A DNA stretch of 64,000 nucleotides from Diphasiastrum complanatum (taxonomy: Eukaryota > Streptophyta > Lycopodiopsida > Lycopodiales > Lycopodiaceae): NCBI GenBank assembly GCA_029204225.1, contig CM055107.1:19653497-19717496 (forward strand), written 5' to 3'. A model generated the notes under the pieces. The model was given only the letters and a program-made list of their open reading frames with translations. It was not told where the DNA came from and ran no database searches. This document shows positions 27,801 through 45,800 of the stretch, piece by piece (position 1 is the stretch's first letter; every line of letters starts with the position of its first letter). A program made the translations under genes and the position numbers.

Positions 27801-30800
27801 CGCACACATGCTGAGGGATAGGGTCGAGTCATTGTTTAGAGAGATGGAGCCTCTATGTCGCCACTGGGCCACTTACGGTTGCAGCATCATGTTCGATGGC
27901 TGGACTTATGTTAGGAGGAGGCCGATCCTCAACATATTGGTCTCCAGCTGCATGGGGGCACAGTTTTTGAGGGCAGTGGATTGCAGCAGGGGGGGGGAGA
28001 GTCATATCTGCAGAGTTCATGTTTGATGTCATCAGGTCTTCCATCCTGTCCATAGGCCCACAGCATGTTGTCACAGTGGTGACGGACAATGCCACGAACT
28101 GCATTCAGATGGGTGTACTGCTAGAGGCCGAGTTCCCTCACATCGTGCACACGAGGAGAAGAAAATTGTTATGCTCTGTTTTCAATTTTATTTCGAATGG
28201 TATGTGCGTAATTACAATTAGTTTCAACTGCATAGATTGATAGCAGATGCACAACACATAAATACAACCCCCTTTATAGCATTTCATAAACACATACATT
28301 ACATTGCAATACACCACCAGGCACGCGTTGCACAAAAAAAACACCGTACATTAATTCATCAGATGTATCAAAATTACAATACGTATTTCCTCCATATACG
28401 GCTGGGGCTGTTCTTTACACTATGTTAGACACTAAATGCTGCCACATCTACTGCCGAAAATTACATAACAACAGTCAGCCACATACGGCCAGACCCCATC
28501 TATTCTAGACATTCCTATGGATCCTCCACTGACTCCTGGCCCTCGTCAGGTGCATTGTTCTGACGCTCTCGCTCTGCCTCCCGGTTAGCCCGTGCTGCCT
28601 CCTGGTTAGCACAACGGCGGGCAGCCCTTTCCTTGACCATGATGAGCTGCCGCCGTGTGAAGTTTATTCCGATCTGCTCATCCAAATCCAGCTCGACACC
28701 GGGGGCGGGGGGCACAGCGCGGGCTGGGTGCTCCGGCTCCGGATTTCTCTGCCGAGCCTGTCGCAGCATCTCTGCAATGTCTGCCTCTTGCTTCCGATGC
28801 CTTTCGTTGTGCCTTCGGACATCTTCCTCGAGCTTCCTCCTGGCTTCGCCCTCAGGCCTCGGTGGTATGCGCTCCGCCATCTCACGACACCCTGTTGCTC
28901 GAAATGGCTCTCACAGCCTCTCAATGGCTCTCACTGTCTCTCTCACAGCCTCCCTCTCACAGCCTCTCACTCGGTCTGTGACACAGCCTCTCACAATGCC
29001 TCTCTCTCACAACCTCTCACTGGCTCTCTCTCACAGCCTCTCACAATGCCTCTCATCGCCTCTCTCTCACAGCCTCTCACTGGCTCTCTCTGTCTCGTGA
29101 GTGCCTATTTAACCCCACAGCCTGTTTTCCCATTTGCATTTGTTGATGATCCCATGTGCTACTGTACCTCTCCCATGTATTGCTCCCCCACATGCTGCAC
29201 TCCGATTGGGTCCATGGTCTGCTCCTCCATAGTGCCCATGTGACGGTGTACCTGTCCGGATGTATTGCTCCCCCACATGCTGCACTCCGATTGGGTCCAT
29301 GGTCTGCTCCGCCCATGTGACGGTGTACCTGCCCCATGTATTGCTCCCCCACATGCTGCACTCCAATTGGGTCCGTGGTCTGCTCCCCCACAGTGCCCAT
29401 CTGACGGTGGATTTGCTGCCCCCCCACATGCTGCACTCCCATTGACCACCAGGTCTGCTCTCCCATATTGCCCCCAATACAGTCCCTCTGTACAGTAACA
29501 TCTTTTTTCGAAACCGTAGCCCTTTTTTTTCTTGAATTTTTTACCTAGTATTAGCCTGTTAAAAGGGTTTTTTCAAAAAAAATAAATAAATAATAAAAAA
29601 TATTATTTTTGTGGTGCCGCCCTGGTACCGCTGGTCTGAGGGCGGCACCATAACCGCGGTACCACCATTATGGTACCGCGGTACCATAATGGCAGTACCA
29701 TGTGCCACTATGATATATATATATATATATATATATATATATATATATATATAATATCAGGGATGAGGGTCCGGGCCGGATTGCCACGATAGACATATTC
29801 CTCGTCGAACAACCCCAGACAGTGCCTGAAATTGAGCAGCGATGTGCGTGAGTACACTTGAGCCCGCGCAGGGAAATTGAGCGAACGAAAGCAAACGACC
29901 GAGCAAGAGTTTACCTGTAACTGAGCCTCTGCTCCTTGAGCCTGCTGCGGATACCAGTGTCGCTGTTGAGGAGGCGGATGTATGAGAACCAGTTCGCACG
30001 TAGCTCTACATCGTCGTACTGCCTCTCGCTTTTAAACAGCGGATGCAATATGTGGGCCACACTGTGAATGGGCCGATGAAACTTATCCCATCGTCGTCGC
30101 CACAACCGCCTAATAGGCTCCAACCTGTGGACCATACCATGTGGAGGCAACAATTACACGATTGCGTGCTGCGGCAGCAAGACGAAACAGAGTGCGAATG
30201 GAAGAAAGGATGGTGAGACGGAAAAAGTTATACCTGGCATGGTCTAGCTCAGAACGCTGGAGAGACTCGCCTATGCGGTCCATGAACTGGTATATGAGGC
30301 CCATCGTGCACCCCTCGCGATCAACGAGCCTCAGAACAGAGTAGATGGGGCGCATGACGTCCATGAGCTGCTGCACATGAACCCAGAAAGGCTCCACGAA
30401 GAGGATCTCATGGAAGGCCAAGCCCTTTGGGGTCGTGGACAGGTCCATGGTTGTGAACTTTGCAGAAGTAGCCATGTGCCGCAAATCACCCTTGAGCTTG
30501 TGTAGCCGCTCAAGCATGATGAACTGAAAGGCGAAGCGGGTGCGAGCGGGCTTCTTCAAGTTGAGCCTGCATTGACAAACGAAATGAGAGGCACACATGA
30601 AACGAGCCAAAAAATAAGTAGCATTTTGAACCAGCCAAAAAATAGAAGCATCTTGAACGAGCCAAAAAATAAGTAGCATCTTACCTACTGAATGTGTGGA
30701 GAAGGGCAGTGGTGCGGCGCTTGCTTGTGACGAAATCCACAACCGCAAGTGCCCTCGTGACAATCTCACTGACCCAAGGCAGGCGCCCGATGGAATGCAG

Positions 30801-42800: not shown

Positions 42801-45800
42801 CATCTCTCGGATATCTGCCTCTTGCTTCCGATGCCTCTCGTTGTGCCTACAGATATCTTCCTCAAGCTTCCTCCTGGCTTCGCCCTCGGGCTTCGGTGGT
42901 ATGCGCTCTGCCATCTCGATCGACCTTCTCCTCACAGCACCCTGGTCCTTGAACACCCTCTCACAGCACCCTGGCTCTCAAACAGCCTCTCACAGCCTGT
43001 CACTGGCTCTCGCTTGCTCTCTCACTGTCTATCACTAGCTCTCTCACAGCCTCTGAAAATGCCAACCACAATGGCATTGTGAGTGCCTATTTATCCCCAC
43101 AGCCTGATCGGCCATGTGGATCCCCATCATCCCTCCATGTGCCTCTGTACCTGCCCCCATGTGATGCTCCCCCCTGTGTTGGTCTCCCATTGGGCCCATG
43201 GTCTGCTCACCCACAATGCCCATGTGCCTCTGTACTTGCCCCCATGTGATGCTACCCCCCTATGTTGGTCTCCCATTGGCCCCTCGGTCTGCTCACTCGC
43301 AGTGCCCATGTGCCACTGCAACAGTCCCCTGCATCATGTACTGTACCCTCTTTTTTTACACCCAGAACCCCCTTTTTTTACTTTTTTTTGTCCTTTTTTG
43401 GTAGTTAATATGCAAAAAAAAATTATTAAAAATATATTGAAAAATAAAAAAAATATTAAAAATGGTACCGCCCTGGTACCGCGGATCCCAAGGCGGTACT
43501 GTACCGGCGGTACCATTGATATGGTACCGGCGGTACCATACCAGCGGTACCACGAGGTACTATTATATATATATACATATATATATCATAGTGTCCCCTG
43601 GTACCGCTGGTATGGTACCGTCGGTATGGTACCGCCAGTACGGTACCGCCCTGGGATCCGCGGTACCAGGGCGGTACCATTTTTTAATATATTTTTTTTG
43701 ATATTTTTAATATTTAATTATTGCCCTTTACCTACCAAAATAGGCTAAAAAAATGGAAAAAAAAGGGGTGTAAAAAAGGAGGGTACAATACATGGTGCAG
43801 GGGACAGGTGCAACAACACATGGGCACTGTGGGTGAGCAGACCATGGGGCCAATGGGAGAGCAACACAGGGGGGGAGCAACACATGGGGGTAGGTACAGA
43901 GGCACATGGAGGGATGGGGGATGCACATGGCCGATCAGGTTGTGGGGATAAATAGGCACTCGCAATGCCATTGTGAGAGGCATTTTTAGAGGCTGTGAGA
44001 GAGCCAATGATGGCCAGTGAGAGAGCCAGCGAGAGCCAGCGACAGGCTGTTTGAGAGCCAAGGTGCTGTGAGAGGGTGTTCGAGGACCAAGGTGCTGTGA
44101 GGAGAAGGTCGATCGAGATGGCAGAGCGCATACCATCGAAGCCCGAGGGCGAAGCCAGGAGGAAGCTCGAGGAAGATATCCGAAGGCACAACGAAAGACA
44201 TCGGAAGCGAGAGGCAGACATTGCAGAGATGCTGCGACAGACTCGACAGAGACACCCAGAGCTGCAGATCCCCGCCCCCGCTATGGCCCTTGCCCCCGCT
44301 GTTGAGCTGGATTTGGATGAGCAGATCGGAATGAACTTCATATGACGACAACTCATCATGGTCAGGGAAAGGGCGGCCAGACGTCGGGCTAACCAGGAGG
44401 CAGAGTGAGAGCGACAGAAAAATACACATGACGAGGGTGAGGAGTCGGTGGAGGATCAATAGGCATGTTTAGAATAGATAAGGTCCAGCCGTATGTGGCG
44501 GACTGTTGCTATGTAATTTTCGGCAGTTTAGGGTGCGGCAAATAACTAGATAGCTGCTTAAAAAAATGACGGGATATGTTCTTAATAGAACGATTAAATG
44601 AATATATAGTTGTTTTTTTTGCAACGCGAGCCTGGTCATGTGAAATGCAATCTCTGTATTTTTTTAAATGCAAATGCAATACATGTGTTTATGAAATGCC
44701 GTCATGGGTTTGGGGTGTAGGGGTAATTGCTATGCTCATGATCGTTTGGAGTGCATGTGCTATCAGTTTGCTGTGGCATCAATTATCGGTTTGTAGCTGC
44801 ATTTATGTGAAGCTATCATTCACTTCAATCGAAATTAGTTGAAAATACGATTCACATGAGCACATAGAATTCGACATAAAATTGAAAATACATCATCACA
44901 TGTACAGAGCGACACACGCACAATGTGCAGACACTCGGTTGGCCCCGTACTCGATTCAGGTTAGTACCCGTTTGGGCTACTAAGGAGCGTTAAGGTGTGG
45001 GCTTGCGTTGAAAGGACCCTGATGCAGGTGAAGTCATCGTGGGTGGACCTGGTAAGTATATTTCGTGTGGCTAGTCTCATTGTCTGTCAGCTATTTTATC
45101 TCTCTTAGTTGGCTTCGGAACGTTAGCGTGTGAGGAGTCTCGGAGCCCCTTGTGCTCATCATGGGACGGCCCCCTGCTCGCGTTTGCAAATTAGTTTCTG
45201 GGTTGGTGATTCGCCCCGGGGCAGCTATGGCTTTCCAACATTTTGCCGGGGAACAATTGGTTGAACCACTTCGGAGATTGGTAGTTTGGGGGGCTGGCAC
45301 CTTTTCCAGAAAAGCCTTTGGCGACCTCTTGAAACAGGTTCTGCCCCTCAGCTTGTTTAGGAGTGTGGTTAAGTGGCAGGATGTTACTCAGCCTGGTGGA
45401 ACTAAGTTTCGTCGGTTTGATGTCTACATTCGGGGTGATACCCATGACTTTCTTGAGGCAATCCGTTGCTATAGGAAGCTCCGCCTATTTGCACGTGTTT
45501 ATCGCAATTACCATGACCGAGGTGGACGGTGTCGTCCAGTTCCTCCCATGCCAAAAGTGAGGCCGGAGGTGAATGGATTGATGACCCTTAACATCAATGG
45601 TATCTCTGGTAGAGACAGAAGTGGCTTTACTACTTAGGAGGGAGCGCCTAGCTTGCCTCGCACTACAGGAGACTCGGGCCTACGCCGGGAGTTGGCCTCT
45701 AAATTTTCATGAGTACTTTGTGTTTGAGCGCCCCGCCCGCAAGGGTGATACCGGAGAGCGGGGAGTGGCCCTAGCTATTCATAAGAGTTTGGCGGCCTTC

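Follow-up and report, generated by a model that had tools for sequence, protein, structure and literature searches.

Ac, hobo and Tam3 are the textbook hAT transposons, each with one gene. Plant hAT elements likewise usually encode a single transposase, whereas Harbinger and CACTA elements also carry a second open reading frame (ORF) (PMC4423477). In this study, we examined a 64,000-nucleotide stretch of the genome of the clubmoss Diphasiastrum complanatum (contig CM055107.1; the whole stretch is hereafter called the window, and positions are counted from its first letter). An earlier note on this DNA had described a second gene, here termed gene 2, which is convergent with the transposase of an hAT-like family and was thought to have been under selection while that family spread. 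We find the host family to be a true hAT and its second gene to be very probably real and under purifying selection, so that the usual single-gene state does not apply to this family. We favour, with a probability of roughly 0.6, a two-gene, DUF659-type hAT element of a lycophyte in which gene 2 encodes a trans-acting accessory protein, most likely a helper. No two-gene hAT was found in the literature searched, the coverage of which excluded Repbase Reports and most subscription journals.

With plant DUF659 hAT elements the family shares its transposase domains, an 8-bp target-site duplication and a CA-type terminus; the second gene sets it apart from their usual single-transposase state. The closest layout is that of MuDR of maize, a member of the Mutator superfamily and not of hAT, which like this family combines a transposase with a convergent second gene of unknown function (mudrA/mudrB) (PMC3440606). 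The promoters of MuDR lie in terminal inverted repeats (TIRs) of ~215 bp, whereas the promoter block of the Diphasiastrum gene lies inside a short terminus. MURB and gene 2 are set apart here without a direct comparison, Pfam having shown nothing for gene 2. VANDAL elements have a Mutator-like transposase, and ORF1 of Harbinger carries a Myb-like domain, which Pfam did not detect in gene 2. With VANC, VANDAL is likewise a plant transposon with a gene additional to its transposase, and its noncoding sequence holds repeated motifs; the domains named for VANC (PMC5735166) were not found in gene 2 by Pfam. PIF/Harbinger with its ORF1 and CACTA (En/Spm) with its second ORF are also two-gene plant DNA transposons, both of other superfamilies (PMC4423477, PMC2528002).

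Copies, constraint and promoter of the second gene

Gene 2 is an intronless frame on the strand opposite to the transposase. Two copies in the window, copy A (28515..28880) and copy B (42549..42914, convergent with its transposase), are intact minus-strand frames of 121 codons from ATG to stop, as the earlier note had read them. In elements A and B the gene sits between the 3′ part of the transposase and the right terminus. The common placement proposed for three copies therefore holds for these two; copy C (44118..44462) belongs to a right-end fragment whose inverted orientation puts the gene on the plus strand. It is indeed decayed: two stops interrupt the frame, and 7 codons have been lost from it without a shift. 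The hand count for A against B also proved exact: of the 39 codons not shared, 22 have silent changes and 17 change the residue. Differences at codon positions 1, 2 and 3 number 10, 10 and 28, and the ratio of nonsynonymous to synonymous rates (dN/dS, NG86) is 0.195. When the same changes were relocated at random to sites of equal base and methylation context, the median ratio was 0.68, and none of 4000 runs fell as low as the observed value.

The same constraint is seen between subfamilies. We distinguish four, A to D; B is the main recent one, and D, represented by L034:6835-7176, shares its type with the database protein described below. For A, the majority sequence was built from five copies, L015 and L016 being taken together as a single copy; for B it drew on 52, among which there are near-duplicates that stem from the same insertion in the assembly. 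The two majority sequences differ at 35 sites, 23 silent and 12 replacement (dN/dS 0.145). The earlier expectation that drift would favour replacements is borne out by the null, which gives 24.8 ± 2.4 replacements among the 35 and, in 10,000 runs, never 12 or fewer. The remaining ratios are 0.20 (B-D), 0.23 (B-C), 0.25 (C-D), 0.32 (A-C) and 0.36 (A-D); the full span between subfamilies, 0.145-0.36, is well removed from the value near 1 that would have spoken against selection. Where copies of A-D can be read, their lengths differ by multiples of three: D lacks 21 nt at its start, C also lacks 21 nt, and the difference in L036, whose copy is of B type, is 3 nt. An old decayed relative in L032 is frame-shifted.

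The transposase offers a matched comparison. Against locus L037, gene 2 gives dN/dS values of 0.19 for copy A, 0.26 for D (L034) and 0.13 for window copy B. For transposase exon 1 the corresponding values are 0.25 (A), 0.26 (L043), 0.29 (L038) and 0.37 (window B), and for exon 2 they are 0.28 (L043), 0.34 (window B) and 0.61 (L034, 6 changes). Exon 3 gives 0.34 (L043), 0 (L034, 4 changes) and 0 (window B, 1 change), and exon 4 gives 0.46 (L043, two pieces), 0.44 (L034) and 0.52 (window B). In matched pairs the transposase ratios are the higher ones (0.25-0.52), save for exons with very few changes; the constraint on gene 2 is thus similar to that on the transposase, or stronger.

A TATA-like motif had been noted in front of gene 2, and copies A, B and C indeed have it in common, as GTGGGG(A/T)TAAATAGGCACTC. 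Five copies, representing four subfamilies, were aligned over about 530-820 nt upstream of gene 2, and conservation peaks in a block of 25 columns, AGGCTGTGGGG(A/T)TAAATAGGCACTC, starting 181 nt before the ATG (43081..43105 for copy B and 29099..29123 for copy A, both on the minus strand). With 23 of 25 columns invariant, this block outranks those of the terminal repeat (21/25 and 20/25). Also upstream of gene 2 in window element B is an 86-bp tandem repeat of 2.2 copies, with CCAAT in each full unit (43135..43318, minus strand). Taking these lines of evidence together, we are highly confident that the element has in gene 2 a genuine protein gene under selection.

The 121-residue protein contains 21 Glu and 21 Arg. 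An AlphaFold2 model from six sequences predicts two long charged helices (residues 10-45 and 66-108; mean predicted local distance difference test score, pLDDT, 81). In agreement with the earlier view that it has no recognised domain, Pfam gave no match up to E 10 for gene 2 of L037 and L034, a PDB sequence search returned nothing better than E 2.4, and Foldseek found none at E ≤ 0.001, its single match (E 4.0) being meaningless. A profile search of the protein database with the 121-residue protein, in which the 7993 candidates with most words in common were scored, found only a Diphasiastrum protein. This sole match, hypothetical protein P0001 (O6H91_Y494800) of Diphasiastrum complanatum, is 86% identical over 92% and groups with the element's subfamily D; it is, in other words, a gene 2 copy annotated as a hypothetical protein. 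Since the same database gave 333 relatives of the transposase, gene 2 may be lineage-specific, or absent from databases elsewhere, or diverged past the reach of the search. A bZIP (basic leucine zipper) motif consists of a basic region, N-x7-R, followed by a leucine zipper. Gene 2 has NQEAARANR, but no zipper follows, a hydrophobic part precedes it and Pfam gave no match, and we therefore rejected a bZIP-like basic region.

The host element and its copies in the genome

Element B (37316..43564, plus strand) is full length at 6249 nt, reads CATAG...CTAT(T) and lies inside (TA)n; its termini were set by comparison with L033, L040 and L046, and most of it is aligned by other genomic copies. The ends form a short TIR starting with CA, CATAGGTCCC at the left and CATAGTACCC at the right. 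Twelve of its 13 GGTACC sites fall into two subterminal clusters, each of about 100 bp: six with the left terminus (37316..37401, plus strand) and six with the right (43464..43564, plus strand). Target-site duplications of 8 bp, CAATACTC and GTAAGAGA, flank both ends of L033 and L040, respectively, the only copies read at both ends outside TA arrays and in unique flanks. These duplications, the CATAG termini, DUF659 and an hAT-dimerisation domain identify the family that hosts gene 2 as a true hAT.

The transposase of element B is encoded on the plus strand in four exons, with splice sites read from the sequence. Exon 1 (37721..39605), with a weakly BED-like finger and DUF659, is interrupted both by a stop codon, which follows GAHLPHMD at 38627-38629, and by a frame shift; in L037 it is an open frame of 672 codons. 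Exon 2 (39715..40087) holds the start of the hAT dimerisation region, assigned by Pfam (Dimer_Tnp_hAT) on L037. Exon 3 (40153..40314) contains CERNWSTW, and the area of its 3′ splice site is damaged in B. Exon 4 (40417..42025) encodes a Pro-rich tail with two GRP motifs, which we take to be AT-hook-like. DUF659 (PF04937) was recognised in the window B transposase at E 2.8e-23 and Dimer_Tnp_hAT (PF05699) at E 1.3e-9 on the joined exons 2 and 3 of L037; the N-terminal finger matched PF02892 (E 0.088) and zf-C2HE (E 0.08), both weaker than the cut-offs. The 333 relatives mentioned above were found with the DUF659 region at E ≤ 0.001. Among the 120 listed, the top one is an unnamed protein with 57% identity. 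Those with a name are from ferns, conifers and flowering plants, led by proteins of the fern Ceratopteris (43% over 97%) and the conifer Cryptomeria (37%). Element A retains a remnant of exon 1 (26743..28152, plus strand) with a stop, a frame shift and then a large internal deletion.

Transposases broken beside an open gene 2, as the earlier note had it, are thus found in both window copies. The description does not extend to the family as a whole, where in at least 4 of 20 ten-kb loci (L035, L037, L041 and L047) the four transposase frames and gene 2 are all open. In L035, L041 and L047, the exon-1 frame extends on its 5′ side to the limit of the sequence examined, with the finger still inside. 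Some of the other loci, L039 and L045 for example, are open across the shorter portion that was available, and the rest have breaks, deletions or altered frames.

The family is highly repeated in the 1.74-Gb assembly. In a first-look search, the gene 2 query from B gave 3644 candidate places, the one from A 3568 (a set that overlaps the former) and the 5′ part of the transposase 5528; the best 150 were scored for each query. Gene 2 is free of stops at 148 of 150 places for query B and, by hand count, at 111 of 150 for query A. Most copies in these lists, which are ranked by protein score and so biased to intact copies, have an open frame, where closed frames would have counted against the gene. 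All 150 scored places for the transposase 5′ part are 100% identical over the 124-residue query, and 97 of them lie in a frame of at least 670 codons (hand count). One such match (G000:C19:28913525-28913896) is in an open frame reported as 3679 codons, perhaps masked sequence.

Some copies are rearranged. L033 and L046 are internal-deletion derivatives in which most of the transposase is gone and gene 2 is intact, both loci having been picked via gene 2, so that its retention there is biased. L046:159-9087 consists of three tandem units of ~3.12 kb, each internally deleted; the gene 2 copies that they carry are intact and identical. Elements also occur as inverted pairs, arranged tail to tail, in L050, L036 and the window (42549-44462). 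In the window, element B is separated by (TA)n (43565..43586) from element C (43587..44742, minus strand), which is inverted, truncated and present only as its right-end part. L050:192-9901 (C17:20625700-20635600) is a perfect palindrome, its 9710 nt being 100% identical to their own reverse complement, with transposase 5′ parts at both outer sides; it is either a very recent inverted duplication or a fold-back artefact of assembly. If it is a real inverted duplication, a read-through transcript would give a long hairpin, in principle like the Mu killer silencer of maize.

Insertions show a target preference for TA microsatellites, as at 43565-43586 of the window. Right flanks start with (AT)4 or (TA)4 in 22 of 35 distinct flanks, compared with 0.4% of positions in the examined DNA, a background that includes these flanks. 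The count started from 57 copies in L003-L050, from which 12 without a recognisable terminus were dropped and duplicates collapsed. The Mutator family MuTAnT has the same habit (PMC4486113). Adjoining element A is a second, different family of decayed transposase-like sequence (30110-31960, minus strand; also L032:5413-7120), which, judged from its sequence, is taken as another hAT and of which two pieces tested gave no Pfam match. A Gypsy element with a chromodomain (21531-26600) has its 3′ end just before the transposase remnant of element A. The window also contains a Copia remnant (32205-34238) and, adjoining element C, a frame resembling an endonuclease of a retroelement without long terminal repeats (non-LTR) (45161-46604). 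Rfam gave no match in the window.

Possible roles of the second protein

The favoured reading, of a two-gene hAT with a trans-acting accessory protein, builds on the structure of the element, the copies with both genes open, the conservation between subfamilies, the codon-level purifying selection and the conserved TATA block. Gene 1 would be the four-exon transposase, which would move the element by cut and paste in the usual hAT manner; it would attach to the termini and perhaps also to the subterminal GGTACC clusters. Gene 2 would have a TATA promoter of its own, situated inside the right terminus, and would be transcribed toward the 3′ end of the transposase and translated, as its frame, promoter block and selection suggest, into a small two-helix charged protein. 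This protein may act in trans and be needed for efficient spread, most likely as a helper of transposition that binds either the transposase or the DNA of the element. Selection on gene 2 implies that copies multiplied more when their gene 2 was functional. A role as cofactor or DNA-end binder, suggested by the earlier note, is plausible, and for a helper role as such we see an even chance on the sequence evidence.

Several observations weigh against this reading. DNA binding lacks direct support, because the predicted protein is acidic overall (isoelectric point, pI, 5.4) and the model has a low predicted template modelling score (pTM 0.32). Among 5.8 billion proteins, searched by a method that needs common 5-residue words, no relative of gene 2 was found outside Diphasiastrum complanatum. 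The contrast between fixed changes (23 silent, 12 replaced) and private ones (20 silent, 22 replaced, in five copies picked without protein rank), which resembles a McDonald-Kreitman comparison, lies in the expected direction and is not significant (p = 0.17). It reached p = 0.09 in an earlier three-copy version and p = 0.06 on adding L051 and L052, which were drawn from stop-free matches, and most B copies were chosen by protein score. Private replacements (22 of 42) are below the null of ~71%, so that they are no clean neutral control and the majority sequence probably does not match the ancestor of every copy exactly. Selection during the spread of the family, as had been proposed, is upheld by the subfamily comparisons, this weaker contrast falling short of significance. 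Finally, the third positions of the sense and antisense frames coincide, and part of the signal is not assignable to a strand.

This last point bears on whether gene 2 is a by-product, with subterminal binding sites in the DNA, an antisense RNA or a long overlapping plus-strand frame as the true target of the constraint. That frame has a dN/dS of 0.25-0.57 and also looks constrained because its third positions face those of gene 2. The sense ratio is nevertheless below the antisense one in 7 of 7 pairs, and silent-only changes number 9 in the sense frame and 4 in the antisense frame, with opportunities of 51 and 101 (three comparisons); the pairs share history and are not independent. These figures disfavour the antisense frame as a real gene and, as constraint at the DNA level would not track codon position, we consider the by-product account scarcely credible. 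A captured host gene fragment, passively carried, strikes us as just as hard to believe. Plant transposons do pick up host fragments, but start, promoter block and frame are kept across subfamilies at the dN/dS values given above. Moreover, searches of 5.8 billion proteins, with 7993 word-sharing candidates scored in the profile search, found no host-gene relative, the sole match being the same species' own element copy of subfamily D, and capture was therefore rejected.

Two other accounts accept gene 2 as a selected gene and give its protein another task. As an anti-silencing factor like VANC, it would bind noncoding repeats and remove silencing marks, with no part in cutting or joining. The noncoding ends do hold tandem repeats and motif clusters (the 86-bp repeat and the GGTACC clusters), VANC targets form tandem repeats (PMC5735166, PMC10398659), and escape from control would suit the high copy number. 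On the other hand, VANC proteins carry DUF1985 and DUF287 (PMC5735166), whereas gene 2 has no sequence or fold relation to any family in the Pfam and Foldseek searches. An alignment of six copies also shows gene 2 to be conserved along most of its sequence, while VANC is said to have highly variable regions. We regard this account as unlikely. A repressor or copy-number regulator, spread also by transposase-less deletion derivatives, would fit L033 and L046, which lose most of the transposase and keep gene 2, one of them as a three-unit tandem array. As these loci were chosen by gene 2 and the right end may persist just for its cis sites, we find such a regulator quite improbable.

Returning to the two-gene hAT with an accessory protein, a selected second gene in a recently amplified hAT would mean that a partner protein is required or that the element has its own counter-measure to host control. 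As the assembly contains copies with both genes open, this question is directly testable, and the simpler convergent case could inform the open question of what the second gene of MuDR does. It is possible, though we put it at somewhat less than an even chance, that a hAT lineage gained an essential, lineage-specific second protein without a detectable relative and became a two-component system, the protein perhaps steering insertion into (TA)n or lifting silencing. If true, this would help explain how the family came to occupy thousands of places in a large clubmoss genome.

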